64,000 nucleotides of DNA from NCBI GenBank assembly GCA_017510825.1, contig JAFWMA010000016.1:62001-126000 (forward strand), written 5' to 3'. Below the pieces are notes generated by a model, which had not been told where the DNA came from, ran no database searches, and saw nothing but the letters and a program-made list of their open reading frames with translations. Made by a program: the position numbers and the translations under genes. Source of the stretch: Clostridia bacterium. GTDB taxonomy: Bacteria; Bacillota; Clostridia; TANB77; CAG-508. Of the stretch, positions 52,211-63,362 are shown in pieces; within the stretch, counting starts at the first letter, position 1, and every line of letters starts with the position of its first letter.

Positions 52211-52469
52211 CGATTGATAGAAAAATATTCATTCAAAAATATAGTTGGAACAGTAATGGAACACCAAATTTCGGTAGCCCAACTGCACCAGGGACAACTT
52301 TAAATGGCCCAAGTAATAATTCATAAATGTAAATAAAAGTCAATGGATTTTATGTAAATCAATAAAAATCATTGACTTTTTTACAATAATTTTATATAAT
52401 AAAGTTTAAGAGCTTTTATTTATAAATATAATTAAAATAACTTCATATTTTTTTATAGGGGTGAAGATA
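52211..52469. other. Intergenic region with a possible protein remnant
   Basis: One frame reads KYSWNSNGTPNFGSPTAPGT then TLNGPSNNS before a stop at about 52325, with no start codon; the Ser/Asn/Gly/Pro-rich tail looks protein-like but no family is evident. Nearby is a GTCAATGGATTTTATG / ATAAAAATCATTGAC inverted repeat (about 52342-52378) that may act as a terminator. A TATAATAAAG box at 52395 could be the promoter for the sugar transferase. Confidence 0.35.
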
Positions 52470-53171
52470 GTGGAAAAAGTTAAAAATATTGAAAGCATTA
52501 AAGTAAAAACATCAATTGAAAGTAAAGAATTGATGGTGATAAAGAACAAAAAAATTCTATACCCTGTTATTAAAAGAACAGTAGATATAATGGGAGGGAT
52601 AGTTGGGGTATTAATTTTAATACCAGTATTAATAGTTGTTTGGATAATGAGAAAGAAGAACAAAGAAGATGGACCATTGTTTTATGACCAACTAAGAATA
52701 GGGAAAAACGGAAAAGTATTTAAACTATATAAATTTCGTTCAATGGTTATAGGAGCAGACGATGCTTTAAAAAAATATTTAGAAGAAAATCCAAAAGCAA
52801 AAAAGGAATATACCAAATATAAAAAATTAAGATATGACCCAAGAATAACCAAAAGTGGAAAATTTTTAAGGAAAACTTCACTCGATGAATGGCCACAATT
52901 TATAAACATTTTAAAAGGAGATATGAGTTTAGTTGGACCTAGACCATATTTACCTAGAGAAAAGGAAGATATGGGGATATATTATGACTACATAATAAAG
53001 GTAAAACCAGGATTATCTGGACCATGGCAAATTGGAGGAAGATCAAAAGTTTCTTTTGAAGATAGAATGCAAATTGATAGAGAATACATACAAAATCTTA
53101 GTTTGAAAACAGATTTAAAAATATTATTTACTACGTTTGTGAAGGTGTTTAAAAAGGATGGCGCAGGATAA
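52470..53171 (+). CDS. Undecaprenyl-phosphate sugar phosphotransferase
   Basis: 233 residues from GTG 52470 (AGGGGTGA eight bases upstream; GTG 52461 is the alternative). One membrane helix near 36-58 (DIMGGIVGVLILIPVLIVVW), then the bacterial sugar transferase domain: GPLFYDQLRIGKNGKVFKLY and KFRSM, KFLRKTSLDEWPQFINILKG and DMSLVGPRPYLPRE. It loads the first sugar-1-phosphate on undecaprenyl phosphate to start a polysaccharide repeat. It probably serves the exopolysaccharide genes at 55686 onward although separated by the sortase locus. Confidence 0.93.
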   Translation: MEKVKNIESIKVKTSIESKELMVIKNKKILYPVIKRTVDIMGGIVGVLILIPVLIVVWIMRKKNKEDGPLFYDQLRIGKNGKVFKLYKFRSMVIGADDALKKYLEENPKAKKEYTKYKKLRYDPRITKSGKFLRKTSLDEWPQFINILKGDMSLVGPRPYLPREKEDMGIYYDYIIKVKPGLSGPWQIGGRSKVSFEDRMQIDREYIQNLSLKTDLKILFTTFVKVFKKDGAG

Positions 53172-53225: not shown

Positions 53226-53254
53226 TTGCATAAAAAATAGTACTATGGTATAAT
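53226..53254 (+). promoter_or_regulatory. Promoter of the sortase locus
   Basis: TTGCAT (53226-53231), 17-bp spacer, TATAAT (53249-53254), 35 bp before the ATG at 53290. Confidence 0.75.
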
Positions 53255-53289: not shown

Positions 53290-53826
53290 ATGAGAAATTT
53301 ACAAAAGGTAGCTATATTGGTAACAATTTTATTGGTAGTTTTATCAGTAAGGGTATTTGCAATGACACAAAGTGATTTTGTTGCTTATGTTACTAAAGAA
53401 CATACTTACAACGGTATAACTTACCAAATGAGCTCAACACACAAGAGAGAATTGGAAAATTATTTAAAAGATAATCCTATAACTGAAGCTCAAGCAGATG
53501 AAATGAAAACAAAATTTGATAGTTTATTAGCATATGCTGGTGCAAATGGAATAAAAGATCCAACAAAAGCAACTTATGAGCAAAAACAAACTCTACTTGC
53601 AAAAGCAAACGAAATTGCTGCAGTAATAGGTTTAACTGTAAAATACAATTCTACAGATAAGGCACTTGAGTTCTACAAAGACGGAAAATTAATTTTAGCA
53701 ACTGGTTTAGAAAATGGATATGTGTTAACTCAAACTGGTAGCTCAAATTACATCTATTTAGCTATACCTGCTGTAGCTGGCGTATTAGCATTAGCTGGAA
53801 TAGTAGTATTCAAAAAAAGAGCATAA
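53290..53826 (+). CDS. Predicted sortase substrate with LTQTG motif
   Basis: 178 residues. Signal peptide at 1-24 (VAILVTILLVVLSVRVFA), a helical soluble middle of about 120 residues, then a sorting-signal-like C-terminus: LTQTG at 146-150, a hydrophobic helix (IYLAIPAVAGVLALAGIVVF) and the basic tail KKRA. Pro of the usual LPxTG is replaced by Thr. The class D sortase encoded 31 bp downstream is the likely processing enzyme. GGGAGG precedes the ATG. The middle domain is not recognised. Confidence 0.75.
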   Translation: MRNLQKVAILVTILLVVLSVRVFAMTQSDFVAYVTKEHTYNGITYQMSSTHKRELENYLKDNPITEAQADEMKTKFDSLLAYAGANGIKDPTKATYEQKQTLLAKANEIAAVIGLTVKYNSTDKALEFYKDGKLILATGLENGYVLTQTGSSNYIYLAIPAVAGVLALAGIVVFKKRA

Positions 53827-53857
53827 AATAAAATGTTTATGTAAAGAAAGGCATAAT

Positions 53858-54508
53858 ATGGGAAGTAATAGTAATCAAAACAATATTGTGCTAAAAATAA
53901 CAAAAGCAACTATTAGGAACATAATAGTTGCTTTATTATTAGCTACAGTATTTTTAATTATAATATACGGATTAACTAGAGAGGAAGTAAATACAACAGT
54001 TTCACTATTAAAAACAATTTCTATTGAAACGAACAAACAAATTGCATCAAATATTGTATTTAATAAAGAAGAAAAAACAGTAAGAAATCGCCCAGAATTT
54101 GGTACACAATATGCACAAATAAAAATCGAAAGTTTAGGAATAGATATACCTTTATACCATGGTGATTCACTATCACTTTTAAGAAACGGTGCTGGTCAAA
54201 TGTCAAGTGCTTATTTCCCTGGTGAAGGTGGAACTGTAGTCTGCATGGCACACAATACAGACAAAATGTTTAAGAGATTACCTGAAATAGAAAATGGTGC
54301 AAAAATTGTTATTGAAACTTCATACGGAATTTTTGAATATGAAGTATATAATACAAAAATAATAGATATGCACGATGTAGACGAAATTGAAATTCAAGAT
54401 AAAGAAGAAATACTTGACGTTTTTACATGTTATCCAGTAAATGGGATAGGTCATAAAACACAGAGATTTGTAGCATATTCAAAATTAGTTAATTATATAG
54501 AACCATAA
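53858..54508 (+). CDS. Class D sortase
   Basis: 216 residues. One membrane helix (about 22-42), stem, then the sortase barrel: ESLGIDIPLYHGDSLSLLRN, GTVVCMAHNTD with the catalytic His (about 129), and VFTCYPVNGIGHKTQRFVAY with catalytic Cys and Arg. The TCYPV box and small size fit class D. Cleaves the sorting motif and links the protein to the wall, or to a lipid or pilus acceptor. AAAGGCA lies before the ATG. Confidence 0.9.
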   Translation: MGSNSNQNNIVLKITKATIRNIIVALLLATVFLIIIYGLTREEVNTTVSLLKTISIETNKQIASNIVFNKEEKTVRNRPEFGTQYAQIKIESLGIDIPLYHGDSLSLLRNGAGQMSSAYFPGEGGTVVCMAHNTDKMFKRLPEIENGAKIVIETSYGIFEYEVYNTKIIDMHDVDEIEIQDKEEILDVFTCYPVNGIGHKTQRFVAYSKLVNYIEP

Positions 54509-54528
54509 ACAAAGAAAGGAATGCATTA

Positions 54529-55392
54529 ATGAAAAGGAGAACTATATTAAATAGAATTATATGTGCTTTATTAACTGTTTTACTAATAATAGAATTAATT
54601 GTAAGTTTAGGAATTACATTGTTAAAAAATACAATATGTAGTAAAGAATATATAGAAAAAGAATTAGTAAAAAATAATTATTACGAAATAACTAAAAGTG
54701 AAATAGAGGATTCATTCAAATACTATGTTCTACAATCAAATTTAGATGACAACTGTGTGGAAGGATTAATAACTGTTGAGAAAGTGAAAAATGACACGTT
54801 GCTAGAACTAAATAAATACTATGATAATTCAAAGCAAGAAATTGATATTGATCCTATAAAACAAGAATTAACAAAAAGAATATATGATAAAGTTGAAAAT
54901 GAATACAATAATTCTATTTCTGAACAAGAAAAAAAAGATATAGAAACTCTAGTTAAAGTAATAGTAAAAAATTATTCAGATAATATGAAAACAATAGGAA
55001 CATGTTTTGAAACTTTAAGTACATTATCAAAAAAATTAGATAAAATTGAGAGCAGAGAAATAATAATTGCATATGGTATAACATTATTTACAGTAGTATT
55101 AATTTCAATAGTATACGTATATGGAACAAAAAATAAAAAGATAATTGTAAACAAATATCATGCTATTGCGCTTATGACTGTTGGATTAATGACAATAATA
55201 ATAATAATAGCAATGTCAATAGCAGTTAACGAACAAGCAATTCAAATATTTACAAAAGGAATAACAGCAGTAATAGTTGATATAATAAAAAATATAAAAT
55301 TAATGCTTTTATTAAGTGGAATTGTGATGTTTACTGTAGGATTAGTAATTTCAATAATTAAAAACATAATGTTAAAAAAATACTTGCGATAG
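54529..55392 (+). CDS. Membrane protein of the sortase locus
   Basis: 287 residues. N-terminal membrane helix (IICALLTVLLIIELIVSLGI), an extracellular helical domain of about 135 residues (YIEKELVKNNYYEITKSEIE onward), then three helices: IIAYGITLFTVVLISIVYVY, ALMTVGLMTIIIIIAMSIAV and LMLLLSGIVMFTVGLVISII. No family recognised, though the layout is seen in proteins next to clostridial sortases. It is 20 bp after the sortase gene with AAAGGAA before the ATG, so it is probably part of the same machine. Confidence 0.7.
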   Translation: MKRRTILNRIICALLTVLLIIELIVSLGITLLKNTICSKEYIEKELVKNNYYEITKSEIEDSFKYYVLQSNLDDNCVEGLITVEKVKNDTLLELNKYYDNSKQEIDIDPIKQELTKRIYDKVENEYNNSISEQEKKDIETLVKVIVKNYSDNMKTIGTCFETLSTLSKKLDKIESREIIIAYGITLFTVVLISIVYVYGTKNKKIIVNKYHAIALMTVGLMTIIIIIAMSIAVNEQAIQIFTKGITAVIVDIIKNIKLMLLLSGIVMFTVGLVISIIKNIMLKKYLR

Positions 55393-55515: not shown

Positions 55516-55548
55516 GGAGGCAATATTTTAATGTTGCCTCTAGTTTTA
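55516..55548 (+). terminator. Terminator after the sortase locus
   Basis: GAGGCAA-N10-TTGCCTC followed by TAGTTTTATT. The remainder of 55393-55685 holds only the promoter at 55606. Confidence 0.75.
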
Positions 55549-55605
55549 TTAAAAGGTTTAAAAAAATGAAAGTGAAAAAAGTGGAAAAATAAATAATAAA
55601 AATTA

Positions 55606-55685: not shown

Positions 55686-56735
55686 ATGAACAAAATAGAA
55701 TTAACAAACAAAAAAATTCTAGTAACAGGTTCAGCAGGTTTTATAGGCTCAAATGTAGTAGAACAATTATTAAAAAAATTTGATGTAAAAAAAATAATAG
55801 GCTTAGATAGCGTAAACGACTATTATGATATAAAATTAAAAGAATATAGAATGAATAAATTAGCACAATTTGAAAAATATGAATTCATAAAAGGAAATTT
55901 ATCAGATAAGGAATTAATAAATAAAATTTTCCAAGAGGAAAAGCCAGAAATAGTAGTAAATTTAGCAGCACAAGCTGGAGTAAGATATAGCATAACAAAT
56001 CCAGACACATATATAGAATCAAACATAATTGGATTTTATAACATATTAGAAGCTTGTAGAAACAACCCAGTAGAGCATCTAGTATATGCATCAAGTTCAT
56101 CTGTTTATGGTTCAAACAAAAAAGTACCATACGCAACAAAGGACAAAGTAGATAATCCAGTATCACTTTATGCAGCAACCAAAAAATCAAATGAACTGCT
56201 TGCACATGCTTACTCGAAACTATACAACATACCATCAACAGGGTTAAGATTTTTTACAGTATATGGACCAGCGGGAAGACCAGATATGGCGTACTTTGGT
56301 TTTACAAACAAATTAATAAACGGTGAAACTATAAAAATATTCAACTATGGAAATTGTAAAAGAGATTTTACTTATGTAGATGATATAGTTGAAGGTGTAA
56401 TAAGAGTAATGCAAGGTGCACCAGAAAAGAAAAACGGAGAGGATGGTTTACCACTTCCACCATACAAAGTTTACAACATAGGAAATAATAATCCTGAAAA
56501 TCTATTGGACTTTGTACAAATATTACAAGATGAACTAATAAAAGCAAAGGTATTACCAGAAAACTATGACTTTGAAGCTCATAAAGAACTAGTGCCAATG
56601 CAACCTGGAGATGTACCAATAACTTATGCAGACACATCAGAATTAGAAAAAGACTTTGGATACAAACCAAGCACAAGCCTAAGAGAAGGACTAAGAAAAT
56701 TTGCAGAATGGTACAAGGATTTTTACAAAATATAA
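55686..56735 (+). CDS. UDP-glucuronate 4-epimerase-like NAD-dependent epimerase
   Basis: 349 residues of the extended short-chain dehydrogenase family. NAD loop GSAGFIGSNVVEQLL (about 15-29), catalytic VYASSSSVYGSN and YAATKKSNE (Tyr-x3-Lys, about 160), and RPDMAYFGFTNKLINGETIK with FNYGNCKRDFTYVDDIVEGV. VNDYYDIKLKEYRMNKL is typical of UDP-glucuronate 4-epimerases (LspL/CapI type), which make UDP-galacturonate. It pairs logically with the UDP-glucose dehydrogenase at 57095. AAAGGAA precedes the ATG. Confidence 0.9.
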   Translation: MNKIELTNKKILVTGSAGFIGSNVVEQLLKKFDVKKIIGLDSVNDYYDIKLKEYRMNKLAQFEKYEFIKGNLSDKELINKIFQEEKPEIVVNLAAQAGVRYSITNPDTYIESNIIGFYNILEACRNNPVEHLVYASSSSVYGSNKKVPYATKDKVDNPVSLYAATKKSNELLAHAYSKLYNIPSTGLRFFTVYGPAGRPDMAYFGFTNKLINGETIKIFNYGNCKRDFTYVDDIVEGVIRVMQGAPEKKNGEDGLPLPPYKVYNIGNNNPENLLDFVQILQDELIKAKVLPENYDFEAHKELVPMQPGDVPITYADTSELEKDFGYKPSTSLREGLRKFAEWYKDFYKI

Positions 56736-56756
56736 TAAAGGTTTAATACTCACTAT

Positions 56757-56791
56757 AAAACAAGCAAGAAATAAAACTTGCTTGTTTTACT
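56757..56791. terminator. Terminator after the epimerase
   Basis: AAAACAAGCAAG pairs with CTTGCTTGTTTT. Confidence 0.88.
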
Positions 56792-56852
56792 TGTGTAAAA
56801 TACAGAATTATAATTAAGATTCATATAAAGAAGTATAATGTTTAAAAACACT

Positions 56853-56985
56853 GTTACAATTCACAGTTAAAAAGGGGTCACAAAAGTCGATAGTATAATC
56901 TTGTTAGCTACTACGCAGAATTGTTCTACTTTATATTATCCCCTTTTACTATTCAACAATTATAAAATCAACTGTGAATTGTAAC
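56853..56985. mobile_element. MITE-like element, family D, intact copy
   Basis: 133 bp with perfect 16-bp terminal inverted repeats GTTACAATTCACAGTT and AACTGTGAATTGTAAC, and an inner AAAAGGGG / CCCCTTTT pair. No coding content and no clear target duplication. It sits between the epimerase terminator and the ugd promoter. Confidence 0.82.
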
Positions 56986-57024
56986 AAAAAACGCCTAAAA
57001 ATGACAAAAAAAATGCATTTTTCA

Positions 57025-57053
57025 TTGCATAAAAACTTATAATATGATATAAT
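57025..57053 (+). promoter_or_regulatory. Promoter of the exopolysaccharide operon
   Basis: TTGCAT (57025-57030), 17-bp spacer, TATAAT (57048-57053). Same boxes as the promoters at 53226 and 5938. No terminator is seen between here and the window end, so it may drive all genes from 57095 on. Confidence 0.75.
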
Positions 57054-57094
57054 ATATAAGCGTATATTGATTAATAGTTAGAAAGGAAGAGAAG

Positions 57095-58267
57095 ATGAAA
57101 ATAGCAGTAGCTGGAACAGGATATGTAGGGCTATCTTTAGCAACTTTATTAAGTCAAAAAAATGAAGTGGTTGCATTAGATGTTGTCCCTGAAAAAGTAG
57201 AAAAAATAAATAAAAGGATTTCACCTATAAAAGATGAATATATAGAAAAATATTTCAAAGAAAAAAAGTTAAATCTAAAAGCAACATTAGACTACAAAGA
57301 AGCATTTGAAGGAGCAGAATTTGTAATTATTAGTACACCAACAAACTATGATGAAGAAAAAGATTTCTTTGATACATCAACAGTAGAAGATATAATAGAA
57401 AAAGTTATTTCAATGAATGATAAAAACATAACAATGGTAATAAAATCAACAATACCAGTTGGATATACAGAAAGCATAAAAGAAGAATATGTTATAAGTA
57501 ACATATTCTTTTCACCAGAGTTTTTAAGGGAAGGAAAAGCACTTTATGACAACCTATATCCATCAAGAATAATAGTTGGAGATAAAGGAGAAAAAGGAAA
57601 GAAATTTGCAGAATTATTAAAACAATCTTCGTTAAAAAAAGATGTAGAAACTTTATTTATGAAACCTACAGAAGCTGAAGCAGTTAAACTATTTGCAAAT
57701 ACATACCTAGCTTTAAGAGTGGCATATTTTAATGAATTAGATACATACGCAGAGTTAAAAAAACTAAACACAAAAGATATAATAGAAGGAGTTGGACTAG
57801 ACCCTAGAATTGGAACGCATTACAATAACCCATCATTTGGATATGGAGGATATTGTTTACCAAAAGACACTAAACAATTATTAGCAAATTATAAAAATGT
57901 TCCTCAAAACTTAATAGAAGCAATAGTAAATTCAAATAAAACAAGAAAAGAATTTATTACTGAGGAAATCATAAAAAAACAACCTAAATTTGTTGGAATA
58001 TATAGACTAACAATGAAATCAGGTTCAGACAATTTTAGATCAAGTGCTATTCAAGACATAATAAAAGGGTTAAAAGCTGATAATCAAAAAGTAATAATAT
58101 ATGAACCAACACTAGATAAAAAAGAATTTGCTGGATGTAGAGTAGTAAGTGACTTAATGGAATTCAAAGAAAAAAGTTCAGTAATAATGGCAAATAGAAT
58201 TGATGATAACTTGATTGATGTAAGAGCTAAAGTATATACAAGAGATTTGTATTCAAGGGATGATTAG
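57095..58267 (+). CDS. UDP-glucose 6-dehydrogenase
   Basis: 390 residues. Oxidises UDP-glucose to UDP-glucuronate with two NAD. Motifs: [20 protein letters not shown] (Rossmann fold), [32 protein letters not shown], the substrate loop [20 protein letters not shown] with catalytic Cys (about 255). GAAAGGAAG precedes the ATG. Product feeds the epimerase at 55686 and the polysaccharide assembled by the following genes. The short family form (about 390 residues) fits. Confidence 0.93.
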
Positions 58268-58329
58268 TTTTCAGAAACTTTCATTCATATATGACATTTG
58301 CGAGAAGTGCGAAAGGAATAAAATAAAAA

Positions 58330-58806
58330 ATGAAAAATAATAAAAGAAAGAAAATTTGCTTAATTTCTTCATCGGGTGGACACTTCGAACAACTATTATG
58401 TTTAAAGCCACTAGAAAATGATTATGATGTTTTTATTGTAACTGAAAAAACAAAATACAATAGAAAAGACAAAAAGATTAAGTATTTTGTTCAACAAGTT
58501 AATAGAAAAGAAATATTATTCATTTTTAAAATGGCAGTAATTCTATTAAAATCTTTATATATTTTTATAAAAGAAAAACCAGATGTAATTATTAGCACAG
58601 GAGTGCTATCTGCAATTCCTATGTTGTTTATTGGGCATTTATTTAAGAAGAATGTAATATTTATTGAATCGTTTGCCAAAATAAATGATCCAACAATGAC
58701 AGGAAAACTTATATATAAAAAACATATTGCAGATAGATTTTATGTTCAATGGGAAAGTATGAAAAAATACTATCCTGATGCAATTTATTTGGGAGGAATA
58801 TATTAA
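58330..58806 (+). CDS. PssD/Alg14-like membrane subunit of a glycosyltransferase
   Basis: 158 residues. KKICLISSSGGHFEQLLCLK at the start is the Alg14/PssD signature; KPDVIISTGVLSAIPMLFIG and NVIFIESFAKINDPTMTGKL follow. It anchors and helps the catalytic partner (58806) to add the second sugar to the lipid carrier. The stop overlaps the partner's start (TAATG at 58804-58808). Confidence 0.9.
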   Translation: MKNNKRKKICLISSSGGHFEQLLCLKPLENDYDVFIVTEKTKYNRKDKKIKYFVQQVNRKEILFIFKMAVILLKSLYIFIKEKPDVIISTGVLSAIPMLFIGHLFKKNVIFIESFAKINDPTMTGKLIYKKHIADRFYVQWESMKKYYPDAIYLGGIY

Positions 58807-59291
58807 TGATTTTTGTAACACTAGGCTCACAAAAGTTTCAGTTTAATAGATTATTAAAAGAGTTAGATAGGCTAGTAGAAAATGAAAAAATAGAAGAAGA
58901 GATATTTGCCCAAATCGGGTACAGTGATTACAAACCTCAAAATTACAAATACAAAGATTTTCTTGAAAGAGATGAATTCAAAAAACATATGGAAGAGAGT
59001 GACATTGTAATAACACATGGCGGGACAGGAGCAATAATTACTGCAGTTAAGCAAGAAAAGAAAGTAATTGCTATCCCAAGACTAGCTAAATATGGAGAAC
59101 ATGTAGATGACCATCAAGTGGAAATTATACATGAATTCCAAGAATTAAATTTTATCGAATCGGTATACGAAATTAATGACATATTAACAAAATTAGATTC
59201 TATAAAGGAAAAAAAGTTTAATATTTACAAATCAAATACACAAGAGATAATAAATGATATAAAAAAATATATTAATGAATCAGGAAATTAA
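58806..59291 (+). CDS. PssE/Alg13-like catalytic glycosyltransferase subunit
   Basis: 161 residues. Starts MIFVTLGSQKFQFNRLLKEL; the nucleotide-sugar site is in DIVITHGGTGAIITAVKQEK and VIAIPRLAKYGEHVDDHQVE, standard for Alg13/PssE (GT28 C-terminal fold). Works with the 58330 product. In streptococcal loci this pair adds galactose or glucuronate; the sugar here is not known. Confidence 0.92.
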   Translation: MIFVTLGSQKFQFNRLLKELDRLVENEKIEEEIFAQIGYSDYKPQNYKYKDFLERDEFKKHMEESDIVITHGGTGAIITAVKQEKKVIAIPRLAKYGEHVDDHQVEIIHEFQELNFIESVYEINDILTKLDSIKEKKFNIYKSNTQEIINDIKKYINESGN

Positions 59292-59295
59292 GATT

Positions 59296-60174
59296 ATGAA
59301 TAATTTAACAAAGAATATTATTTTAACACCATTCAACATTTTGTATAAAATCAATCCAGAGCTAGACTTAGAGATTTTATTTAGATTAAAAGTTGGATAT
59401 AAACTTAATTTAAAATCTCCAAAAACATACAATGAAAAAATACAATGGATTAAACTATATGACAAGAACGAATTAATGCCTAAATATTGCGACAAGTTTT
59501 TTGTAAGAGAATATATAGAAGAGAAAGGTTACAAAGAATTATTAAATAAGTTAATATGGCAAGGAACCAATCCAAAAGAAATACCGTTTGACAAGCTACC
59601 AGAAAAATTTGTTGTTAAAGTAACTCATGGTTCAACATTTAATATAATTTGTACTGATAAATCAAAGCTAGATAAAAAGGATGTAATTAATAAATGTAAC
59701 AAGTGGCTAAAAGCAAAATTCTTACCTTGTTATGGAGAATGGTTTTATGGAATAGAAAAACCAAGAATAATAGTTGAAGATTATATAGAATCAGAGAATG
59801 AGTATGGATTATTAGATTATAAACTTTTTTGTTTTAATGGCAAGGTTAAGTGTATTTATGTTTCAACCTCAAAAATTGGAGATGATTCATATGCTATTGA
59901 TTATTACGATGAAAAGTGGAACTACATACCATTAAAGAGAAAAGGGCACAAAAGTTTAGGAAAAATAGAAAAACCAAAGCAATTTGAAAAAATGGTTAAA
60001 ATTGCTGAAGACTTATCTTCAGATTTCTCGCATGTTAGAATTGATTTTTTCTATGAGAACAATAAAATATATTTTGGAGAAATGACATTCACAACATCAG
60101 CTGGATTTGGAAAAATCGATCCATATGAATTTGATTTAAAAATGGGAGAATGGTTAAAACTCCCAAATAAATAA
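59296..60174 (+). CDS. TupA-like ATP-grasp protein, intact copy
   Basis: 292 residues from ATG 59296 (AGGAAA upstream); ATG 59275 would overlap pssE and add seven residues. Family features: KTYNEKIQWIKLYDKNELMP, YCDKFFVREYIEEKGY, FVVKVTHGSTFNIICTDKSK, KPRIIVEDYIE, LLDYKLFCFNGKVKCIYV, VRIDFFYENNKIYFGEMTFT. This ATP-grasp group (PF14305) occurs in polysaccharide loci and is thought to attach amino acids or similar groups to the glycan. A second, frameshifted relative lies at 61309. Confidence 0.85.
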   Translation: MNNLTKNIILTPFNILYKINPELDLEILFRLKVGYKLNLKSPKTYNEKIQWIKLYDKNELMPKYCDKFFVREYIEEKGYKELLNKLIWQGTNPKEIPFDKLPEKFVVKVTHGSTFNIICTDKSKLDKKDVINKCNKWLKAKFLPCYGEWFYGIEKPRIIVEDYIESENEYGLLDYKLFCFNGKVKCIYVSTSKIGDDSYAIDYYDEKWNYIPLKRKGHKSLGKIEKPKQFEKMVKIAEDLSSDFSHVRIDFFYENNKIYFGEMTFTTSAGFGKIDPYEFDLKMGEWLKLPNK

Positions 60175-60188
60175 AGGAAATCGAAATT

Positions 60189-61307
60189 ATGATAAAGGTA
60201 TTAATGGTTATTACAGGTGGTTTGAGAAGAAATGGAATTTGTGTTTCTCAATTAGACTATGCAAAAAAAATAAGTAAAACTGACTTTCAAGTTGATTTTG
60301 CTGCTGTACATAATGATTCAAAAGAAATGATTGAAAAATATAAAGAATGTGGTTGCATAGTATATAAACTACCTGACAGAAGAAAAAATCTATTTAAGTA
60401 TATAAAAGCTTTAAAAAAATTATTAAATTCCGAAAAATATGATATTATTCATGTACATGGAAGTAGTGCACTTATGTTCATTGAACTACTTATAGCCAAA
60501 AAATGCAAAGTAAAAGTTAGAATTGCTCATAGCAGGAACACAAAATGTGATAGACCACTAATTGACAAAATATTAAGACCAATCTTTTATAGCTCTTTTA
60601 ATTATGCATTAGCATGTGGAACTGATGCCGGAAAATGGTTATTTAACAAAAAAAAATTTAATGTTTTTTTTAATGGAAAAGATTTAGAACAATATAAATT
60701 TAAAGGTGATTTAAGAAAAGAATATAGAGAAAAACTTCATTTAAAAAATGATGAAATTGCCTTTGGAAATGTTGGAACCTTTTATGAACAAAAAAATCAC
60801 TTATTTTTAATTGATGTATACAATAAAATATATGAAAACAACAAAAAATCAAAGCTTTTTTTAATGGGGGAAGGTATATTGGAAAATAAAATAAGAGAAA
60901 AGGTTTCAAAATATGGATTGGAAAATAATGTTATATTTTTAGGAAGAGTTTCTAATGTAAATGATTTTTTAAATGCTATGGATTGCATGTTATTTCCATC
61001 TTTATTCGAAGGACTTCCTAATGTTGTCCTAGAATGGCAAATCAATGGATTAACATCAATTATATCTAATACAATAACAGATGAATGTATAGTAACAGAT
61101 TTTGTTAAATCCATACCTATAAATCAAGGTACTAAAACCTGGACAGATTTTGTAAAAAAAATAAAGATTGATACTTTAAAAGAAAGAATAAATAAATCAA
61201 AAACCGGATGTGAAAAAATAATTAAAGCTGGCTTTGAAATAAACAATAATACTTTAAAATTAGAAGAGTATTACAAGGAATGTTTAAAGAAAGAAGGGAT
61301 AAATTGA
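60189..61307 (+). CDS. Glycosyltransferase family 4
   Basis: 372 residues, GT-B fold. KVLMVITGGLRRNGICVSQL at the start, YDIIHVHGSSALMFIELLIA and IAHSRNTKCDRPLIDKILRP in the acceptor domain, then FGNVGTFYEQKNHLFLIDVY and the donor-site block FLGRVSNVNDFLNAMDCMLF with PSLFEGLPNVVLEWQINGL (EX7E pattern). Resembles EpsF-type enzymes. Adds a sugar to the lipid-linked repeat. AAGGAAAT precedes the ATG. Confidence 0.92.
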   Translation: MIKVLMVITGGLRRNGICVSQLDYAKKISKTDFQVDFAAVHNDSKEMIEKYKECGCIVYKLPDRRKNLFKYIKALKKLLNSEKYDIIHVHGSSALMFIELLIAKKCKVKVRIAHSRNTKCDRPLIDKILRPIFYSSFNYALACGTDAGKWLFNKKKFNVFFNGKDLEQYKFKGDLRKEYREKLHLKNDEIAFGNVGTFYEQKNHLFLIDVYNKIYENNKKSKLFLMGEGILENKIREKVSKYGLENNVIFLGRVSNVNDFLNAMDCMLFPSLFEGLPNVVLEWQINGLTSIISNTITDECIVTDFVKSIPINQGTKTWTDFVKKIKIDTLKERINKSKTGCEKIIKAGFEINNNTLKLEEYYKECLKKEGIN

Positions 61308-61308
61308 G

Positions 61309-62182
61309 ATGATAACGAAAAAAATCTGGAAATACTTAATAGATATTGGAATGCTAAAATTTATACCGGATGAAAAGTATTTAAAAATGAAATTTAAAAA
61401 AGTTATGAAAAAAAATCTTAATTTAAATAATCCTAAAACTTTCAATGAAAAATTGCAATGGATTAAACTATATGATAGAAATCCTATTTATACAAATTAT
61501 GTTGATAAATATGAAGTAAAGAAAATAATAAAGAATACAATTGGAGATGAATATATTATTCCAACATTGGGCGTATGGGACAAATTCGATGATATAGACT
61601 TTTCTAAATTACCAAATCAATTTGTTCTAAAATGCACACATGATTCAGGGGGATTGATTATTTGTAAAGATAAGTCAAAATTAAACTTAAAAAAAGCAAG
61701 AACTAGATTTAATTTGATAATGAAAAGAAATTACTACTATAGATTTAGAGAATGGCCATATAAAAACGTTAAACCTAGAATAATAGCAGAAAAATATATA
61801 GTAGATGAAAGTCGGATATGAATTAAAAGATTATAAATTCTTTTGCTTTAATGGTAAAGTTAAGTACATTCAGGTTGATTTTGATAGATTTAATAATCAT
61901 AAAAAGAATATTTATGATATAGACTGGAAATTACAAGATTTTGAAATTAATTATCCTAGTGATAAAAGCCATAAAATAAAAAAACCAGAAAATTTAGAGA
62001 AAATGATTGAGATAGCTGAAAAACTATCAAAACATAATATATTTCTTAGGGTTGATTTATATAGTATAAAAAAACAAATTTTATTTGGAGAACTTACATT
62101 TTTTCCAGGTGGTGGATTAATGCCTTTTAAACCTGAAGTGTGGGATTTAAAATTAGGAGAAATGATTAGATTACCAAAATAA
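61309..62182 (+). pseudogene. TupA-like ATP-grasp protein, second copy, frameshifted
   Basis: Reads MITKKIWKYLIDIGMLKFIP, KTFNEKLQWIKLYDRNPIYT, NQFVLKCTHDSGGLIICKDK and KPRIIAEKYIVDES in frame 1, then a stop at 61819. The continuation GYELKDYKFFCFNGKVKYIQ and RVDLYSIKKQILFGELTFFP is one frame over to 62182. Deleting the C at 61813 joins the halves into a complete family member of about 290 residues. ATG 61309 directly follows the previous stop. Either a recent mutation or a sequence error; both halves are well conserved. Confidence 0.88.
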
Positions 62183-62204
62183 TAAAAACAAAGGAAGGTA
62201 TAAC

Positions 62205-63362
62205 ATGTTAGTATATTTAATATGTTTTATTAGTTCAATAATATTAATATATTTAGGGGAACATACTGAAAATAAAGCTAAAAGAATAATATTTATAGGA
62301 ATAGCATTATTAATACCATGTGTTTTAGCAGGAATCCGAGCAACTAGTATTGGTACAGATGTAAATGTATATTTAAAACCAATGTTTACGAAAGCAACAT
62401 CAGCAAATACATTTTCAGACTTTTTGAATTATAAAATTTATCGTTCAAGAGTTGCAAAAGACTATGAAATTGGTTTTACCTTTTTAGTATACTTAGTTAG
62501 TAAAATATTTAACAATATACATATTGTAATGTTTGTAATAGAAGCTTTAATTATTTTTCCTATATATTTTGGATTGAAAAAAATAAAATGTATGAATAAT
62601 AAAATAGGTTTAGGAATGCTAATTTATTATTTTTTATTTTTTCATCCGGGATTAAATCTTATGAGACAATATGTTGGAGTTTCTTTTGCTTTTTATGGCA
62701 TATGTTGTATTCTGGCAAAAGAAAATAAATGTATAATAAAATACATAATTTCATCTATAATAGCATTTACATTCCATAAATCTACAATAATGTCAGCAAT
62801 ACTAGTAATTATATATTATATACTATATAAGAAAAATAAAAAAGAAAGATATTTAACATTTAATTCTTATAAAATTCCAATTAATACTTTATTATCATTG
62901 TTGATATTATTTGTTGGATTATTTGCATTATTAAATTTAGGTATGTTTAATAGTTTGCTTAAGTCTGTAGATGGAATGTCTAGATATACAATGTATACTA
63001 AATCTATTTCTATTTCGGATTTTAGTTTAGTTAGAGTTTTTCCGATAATAATAATCTTTTTACTTTTATTTAAAAAATTTATTAATAAAAACGAAAATTC
63101 ATTATTTTACATATTGACCTTTTGTATGGCTTATTTAGTATTTGGACAACTATCAAATGTTTCTAAGAACGGAGTAAGGATTTCGATTTTATTTACAGTT
63201 TTTAATGTTATAACTTATCCTTTATTGGCTTCAACACCAAATACAAAAAAAGGGAAGATATTAGCCACATCCTTTATAGTAATATATGTAATAGCATATT
63301 GGGGATATATGTATGTTTATAGAGGATTTAATCAAACTGTACCATTTGTTTTAGGAATATAA
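62205..63362 (+). CDS. EpsG-type polysaccharide polymerase
   Basis: 385 residues with about ten membrane helices. The family marks GIRATSIGTDVNVYLKPMF (conserved R-x5-G-x-D near 44-54), YEIGFTFLVYLVSKIFNNIH, NLMRQYVGVSFAFYGI and FTFHKSTIMSAI (Phe-His-x-Ser/Thr) are all present. Expected to join lipid-linked repeats outside the membrane. AAGGAAGG precedes the ATG. Confidence 0.88.
   Translation: MLVYLICFISSIILIYLGEHTENKAKRIIFIGIALLIPCVLAGIRATSIGTDVNVYLKPMFTKATSANTFSDFLNYKIYRSRVAKDYEIGFTFLVYLVSKIFNNIHIVMFVIEALIIFPIYFGLKKIKCMNNKIGLGMLIYYFLFFHPGLNLMRQYVGVSFAFYGICCILAKENKCIIKYIISSIIAFTFHKSTIMSAILVIIYYILYKKNKKERYLTFNSYKIPINTLLSLLILFVGLFALLNLGMFNSLLKSVDGMSRYTMYTKSISISDFSLVRVFPIIIIFLLLFKKFINKNENSLFYILTFCMAYLVFGQLSNVSKNGVRISILFTVFNVITYPLLASTPNTKKGKILATSFIVIYVIAYWGYMYVYRGFNQTVPFVLGI

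Follow-up and report, generated by a model that had tools for sequence, protein, structure and literature searches.

A sortase, its probable substrate with a proline-free signal and a membrane protein form a conserved unit near polysaccharide genes in gut Clostridia

The three-gene locus and its surroundings

Within the window, the 64,000-nucleotide stretch of DNA analysed here, three co-directional open reading frames lie on the forward strand at 53290-53826, 53858-54508 and 54529-55392, where the original prediction had placed a three-gene class D sortase locus. We refer to their products, in gene order, as S (the putative substrate), T (the sortase) and M (a membrane protein). The features of the locus are as follows.

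53290-53826, forward strand: S, a substrate of 178 residues with a signal peptide, a domain of helices and strands and a sorting signal (sequence, family and model)
53290-53361, forward strand: predicted signal peptide of S, about residues 1-24 (by eye and from the alignment; Ala24 is nearly invariant)
53725-53739, forward strand: LTQTG sorting motif of S, residues 146-150 (sequence and family alignment)
53749-53823, forward strand: C-terminal hydrophobic helix and KKRA tail of the sorting signal of S (sequence)
53858-54508, forward strand: T, a sortase nearest class D, 216 residues, with one N-terminal membrane helix (profile matches)
54251-54253, forward strand: codon of the catalytic His132 of T (kept in 93 of 93 intact T)
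54428-54466, forward strand: loop of T from Cys191 to Arg203, with the codon of residue 199 at 54452-54454 (alignment)
54529-55392, forward strand: M, a four-helix membrane protein of 287 residues with an outside helical domain (sequence and AlphaFold2 model)
52461-53171, forward strand: neighbouring initiating undecaprenyl-phosphate sugar transferase (Bac_transf), 5' of the unit (profile matches)
within 55686-63362, forward strand: sugar-nucleotide epimerase, UDP-glucose dehydrogenase family protein, and an Alg14-like and GT28-like pair
within 55686-63362, forward strand: TupA-like ATP-grasp protein, group 1 glycosyltransferase and EpsG family protein (EpsG at 62205)
53226-53254, forward strand: promoter-like site, TTGCAT, 17 nucleotides, then TATAAT preceded by TG (by eye)

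The C-terminus of S reads LTQTG-SSNYIYLAIPAVAGVLALAGIVVF-KKRA, as originally described, and fits the layout of a sorting signal, with a motif, a hydrophobic helix and a basic C-terminal tail; its scores fall below the cut-offs of PF00746 and TIGR01167. The location of the unit inside a polysaccharide cluster is likewise borne out, with the sugar transferase gene on the 5' side and the sugar-nucleotide and glycosyltransferase genes on the 3' side, and the CpsB gene of the window's genome lies in the same cluster, about 22 kb downstream of T. A hairpin (GAGGCAA...TTGCCTC) followed by T-rich sequence was seen by eye at about 55517-55549. The consensus scan for promoters and terminators gave no useful signal at the locus, and the promoter-like site was absent from its output, the scan demanding four of six matches in the first hexamer.

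The host assembly of the window measures 1.43 Mb, is 84% complete and encodes six sortases in all. About 15 kb downstream of the unit, this genome also encodes a dockerin protein of 1092 residues (PF00404; L186:8102-12483), followed by a 270-residue protein that ends in LPQAG, lies directly before Wzz and appears cohesin-like by eye, without a Pfam match. In genome G000, contigs C10 and C13 carry matching open reading frames for large surface proteins (L012/L013 and L016/L017), and these are probably duplicated or unresolved contigs.

Conservation of the unit and its polysaccharide neighbourhood

The order S-T-M was identical in the 12 relative loci read first. A scan of one genome per species with a T alignment gave 195 relatives, of which the best 80 were examined, so the counts that follow are biased towards close relatives; the same scan with a single T sequence found nothing. 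Nearly all of these 80 come from uncultured Clostridia, many of them from guts, and one T relative belongs to Candidatus Merdicola faecigallinarum, class Clostridia. S lies directly upstream of T in 78 of the 80 loci and M directly downstream in all 80; where S is missing, T stands at a contig end in one case and follows a VanZ-like open reading frame in the other. The genes are tightly packed, S and T overlapping in 72 of 78 loci (median spacing -8 bases) and M following T after a median of 15 bases. Exceptions to the arrangement are L116 (T and M without S), L154 (neither neighbour) and L160 (not a triad). A VanZ-family protein recurs near the unit, at L181:2558-3049 (PF04892) and at L116:7540-8004 (by eye), the latter occupying the position of S, and two S genes in tandem precede T in L082 and L139.

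A search with T of 95 related genomes identified orthologues in 13, the window's included (37 to 49% identity outside it), a longer T in four more, a broken T in one (G008) and other sortases in nine. S was present in all 17 of these genomes that have T. When S was searched independently in 391 genomes of the class it was found in nine, each of which also has T; the corresponding search with T gave 13 matches in the 391 genomes. S, T and M are adjacent outside the order in G207, G255, G369, G108 and G159 (in G159 as T-M-S), which indicates that the unit is older than the order. Of the other class-level genomes, G470 shows a weak M and an S that is divergent and was recognised by eye, G127 has M with the position of S lying beyond the contig end, and G256 and G347 have neither. 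Within the genus of 31 genomes (G000-G030) the unit is patchy, being intact in G000, G002, G006 and G024 and broken in G008. Judged by sequence comparison, S-T-M is a conserved unit across many gut Clostridia, more than chance would give.

Polysaccharide markers occur near the unit in 71 of the best 80 loci: Wzz, BY-kinase or CpsB in 44, failing these an initiating sugar transferase in 22, and otherwise other sugar enzymes in five. The available flanks of the remaining nine carry no such marker, and four of these nine have less than 1.1 kb of downstream sequence. Of the 69 loci that have 2.5 kb or more of downstream sequence, 39 have Wzz adjoining M, and the unit typically sits just ahead of the genes for Wzz, the tyrosine kinase and CpsB, whose identities were checked against Pfam on one locus. 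CpsB is encoded in 56 of the 95 related genomes, nearly always in a single copy, and of the 16 genomes that have both, 14 carry it within 35 kb of the unit on a single contig.

The proline-free signal, the sortase and the membrane protein

The S proteins compared number 81, that is, 80 from the best 80 of 195 loci (two of which have two each) and that of the window. Thr-Gly is kept in 80 of them, 27 to 36 residues before the end, the exception being L123, which reads QNTD. Among the 80 with Thr-Gly, position 1 of the motif is Leu in 70; position 2 is Ala (39), Val (25), Lys (7), Pro (4), Thr (2, among them the window's S), Gln (2) or Ile (1); position 3 is mainly Tyr (40) or Gln (32), and position 6 mainly Asn (40) or Ser (30), giving the consensus L-[A/V]-[Q/Y]-T-G-[N/S]. 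Degenerate motifs beside an intact T are found in L123, L161 and L162. By contrast, proline is present in 22 of 22 other sorting signals from the same genomes and loci (Fisher p 1.3e-18 against the four of 80 in S, a descriptive value because the rows are related). This set was curated by hand from 19 signals of one scan and three of another, with three matches inside M proteins and five S proteins (the window's included) dropped; L104 was read as LPKAG, and the tails of L118 and L120 are identical. The other sorting signals found in the window's own genome all carry proline and are LPQTG, LPKTG, NPTTG, IPQTG, MPPTG (twice), LPQAG and an LPRTGF tail. The original prediction had read LTQTG as a local change of Pro to Thr in an LPQTGS-type signal, and a genome search does find proline-bearing LPxTG-type signals, which, taken literally, is the outcome that this prediction had named as refuting it. 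However, the rarity of proline throughout the S family rules out a lone outlier, and the distinct specificity that it points to is a property of the family.

In 45 of the 81 S proteins the basic tail is followed by -ANA or -VNA, possibly a tag on the cleaved peptide; the S of the window has neither. Upstream of S, 12 of the best 80 loci (L104, L118-L120, L131-L133, L137, L140, L143, L147 and L148) encode a protein of 236-293 residues with a proline-bearing signal (LPKAG, LPKTG, LPYAG, LPHAG, LPSTG or IPKAG). These proteins could be second substrates of T or could be served by another sortase; with them in mind, to speak of one substrate may be too strict at these loci.

S was modelled from a 58-row alignment (57 of 60 proposed non-redundant rows, and the window's). 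The predicted model (pLDDT 77) consists of helices and three strands followed by a low-confidence tail, and its comparison with the PDB gave no Foldseek match at E <= 0.001 and no VIA match at Z >= 5, which is not to say that the fold is new. Pfam and NCBIfam searches with the bodies of S and M returned nothing beyond the sorting tail and scattered weak matches.

T is a sortase by profile comparison, exceeding the cut-offs of Pfam Sortase (PF04203; 2e-23, 82.9 bits against 26.6) and TIGR01076 (81 against 39.35). The original assignment to class D holds as the nearest class but not as membership, since the best class models, SrtD (NF058671; 99.4 bits) and class_D (NF033746; 90.9 bits), are matched below their cut-offs of 140 and 165; the class E model (NF033747) scores 49.7 against 160. 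T also has a clear PDB profile match to class D structures, namely C. perfringens SrtD (4d70) and 2ln7, which we take to be that of B. anthracis. His132, Cys191 and Arg203 are intact in all 93 intact T compared (the best 80 of 195 relatives, the window's, four fusions and eight class-level matches).

Residue 199 of T, within the loop from Cys191 to Arg203, varies with position 3 of the motif. All 30 loci whose motif has Gln carry His at this residue, all 39 whose motif has Tyr carry Tyr, and the two states agree in 72 of 72 rows that have both. The T columns with the highest mutual information with the motif, 199, 196 and 194, all fall in this loop. On a tree built without the loop, the pattern reduces mostly to one split and one fused lineage, with one independent pair for the Tyr/Gln switch on well-supported branches and two on all branches. 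Column 199 ranks second of 179 for co-change with the motif (three of its seven changes; p 0.006 uncorrected), which is not significant after correction, and the motif changes without a change at residue 199 in L081, L122 and the L080/L083 pair. The covariation is suggestive, a lead that comes from few independent events.

NF058671, the best NCBIfam model for T, presumably pairs with TIGR04383, the LPXTA processed acidic surface protein. T resembles the partner of that protein in this respect, whereas S differs from the protein itself in a motif that ends in Thr-Gly and lacks proline and in its neighbourhood; TIGR04383 matches two of 58 S weakly (best 8.6e-4). S also recalls the LAXTG signals of class E (S. 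coelicolor SrtE1), for which passages of PMC5148588 give Ala in place of proline, as in 39 of the 80 S. T itself is not class E by its score. The site homologous in our alignment to the SrtE1 tyrosine, which the same passages (PMC5148588) assign to the beta3/beta4 loop and the P3 site, is Ser in 66 of 93 T, Tyr in 11, Thr in six, Phe in five and other residues in the rest, with Met in the T of the window.

The third protein agrees with its description as a four-helix membrane protein with an outside domain. Four long helices and an outside helical domain of about 135 residues make up its AlphaFold2 model (68 rows, mean pLDDT 93). M belongs to no named family in Pfam or NCBIfam, and a PDB profile search gave no match better than E 0.07. 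The best VIA match of the model is the lipoprotein transacylase Lit (7b0p; Z 9.2, rmsd 4.2, 197 residues, although helical bundles reach such Z by chance), with which it would share four helices and an outside domain. The identity with Lit hinted at by the structure finds no support in profiles or catalytic residues: hhalign gives a probability of 9.5%, no His occurs among the conserved columns of M, the two invariant histidines of Lit have no conserved counterpart in it, and PF07314 was not found in 56 relatives, the window's genome included.

Fusions, sortase-less relatives and the proposed role

S and T form one polypeptide in G067, G060, G062 and G074, which represent three families of the order. 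The S profile matches the N-terminus of the fused T polypeptide, over its full length in G067 (1.9e-25), and the motifs before the membrane helix read FKSTG, FQKTG, MTYTG and MTYTG (positions by eye); G067 has no sortase match besides the fusion. The literature searched holds no description of an S-T-M module or of a sortase fused to its own substrate.

In other relatives T is absent or broken. G083, G085 and G091 encode S-domain proteins of 289 to 292 residues immediately after Wzz, the kinase and CpsB, without T, and these proteins lack a Thr-Gly motif before their helices and end in a two-helix hairpin. The S of G081 is similar, an ambiguous base splitting its open reading frame. G081, G083 and G091 gave no sortase match of any kind, and the one sortase of G085 is not T-like. 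As these four genomes belong to one family, a single event may account for them. In G008, T is split over two frames, its Cys replaced by Ser and its Arg missing; a different sortase gene separates it from S, whose motif reads APKTG. Across the 95 related genomes, Thr-Gly is kept in every S that accompanies an intact T, and the motif is lost or changed in S without one. Because S is kept at the locus in genomes without a sortase, covalent sorting is not indispensable for the retention of S. S-layer homology proteins (PF00395) follow fused or sortase-less S in L066, L069, L181 and L182, a hint of a role in the S-layer or with a wall polymer.

Sequence comparison shows that the unit is conserved and linked to polysaccharide genes, that the triad is intact, that the motif is proline-free across the family and lost in relatives without T, and that S and T are fused in some genomes. 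We conclude that T, nearest class D, is a putative sortase dedicated to one extracytoplasmic component of the polysaccharide machinery. The unit as a whole is probably a one-enzyme, one-substrate sorting module of the cell-surface polysaccharide machinery. S would be exported and then held by its C-terminal helix; T would cut it between Thr and Gly of the proline-free motif L-x-[Q/Y]-T-G and pass it from the membrane helix on to an acceptor in the envelope, the simplest candidate being lipid II, the precursor of the cell wall. There S would act outside the membrane where the polymer controlled by Wzz, the tyrosine kinase and CpsB is made or retained, and M may be a membrane partner that assists S and T. 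We infer these steps, from cleavage and transfer to the acceptor, the effect of S on the polymer and any role of M.

Two known systems frame this reading. The closest characterised relative in kind is C. perfringens SrtD, for which passages of PMC4498605 describe sortase and substrate in one operon, as in S-T-M; the unit differs from class D systems in its motif without proline, a T below the class cut-offs, the additional M, the polysaccharide locus and the natural S-T fusions. The closest functional analogy, though not a relative, is exosortase/PEP-CTERM, in which a sorting enzyme is likewise found in polysaccharide loci. According to sections of PMC1569441, exosortase (EpsH) is a multi-helix Gram-negative enzyme not homologous to sortases and is encoded with PF02706 and PF02397 neighbours. 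T differs from it in its sortase-family match, its single hydrophobic N-terminal helix and its occurrence in Clostridia. Taken further, the analogy would make the unit a Gram-positive counterpart of exosortase, in which T joins S covalently to the polymer, either nascent or still lipid-linked, or else to the complex that sets chain length, M serves as acceptor or carrier, and T in some lineages has turned into a self-processing sortase with its substrate in the same chain; we hold this to be rather unlikely.

That T joins S covalently to the polysaccharide or a lipid-linked precursor, as a protein-polymer conjugate, and not to peptidoglycan, is unlikely as well. The fixed neighbourhood of chain-length, kinase, phosphatase and initiating-transferase genes speaks for it, and the same genome-neighbourhood logic was used for exosortase/PEP-CTERM in parts of PMC1569441. 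Against it, some relatives keep S at the same locus without a sortase, and no gene of the locus names an amine-bearing sugar. This second point weighs because known sortases use amine nucleophiles. It is quite unlikely that T works chiefly as a regulator or as a protease that frees S from the membrane, thereby switching a polysaccharide factor that is bound there and needing no stable acceptor. S does remain a membrane protein without further features of a sorted substrate in the family that lacks T, and the fusions put substrate and enzyme on one chain, but sortases are normally transpeptidases, and the window encodes T and S as separate proteins, each with its own anchor. That T is a class D sortase like any other, with a commonplace substrate, as its recognisable nearness to class D and the operon substrate of SrtD in passages of PMC4498605 might suggest, with a motif that has drifted and an incidental neighbourhood, is very improbable given the contrast in proline between S and the other signals, the frequency of polysaccharide markers around the unit and the proximity of CpsB.

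Sortases are known for the display of adhesins and pili. If the sorting-module reading is true, S-T-M ties protein sorting to the assembly of capsule or exopolysaccharide in gut Clostridia. The only constant substrate of T would then belong to the polysaccharide locus itself and carry a proline-free signal. The natural enzyme-substrate fusions, together with the sortase-less relatives, are natural experiments. The association of Gln or Tyr in the motif with His or Tyr at residue 199 may in turn offer a concrete test of specificity.
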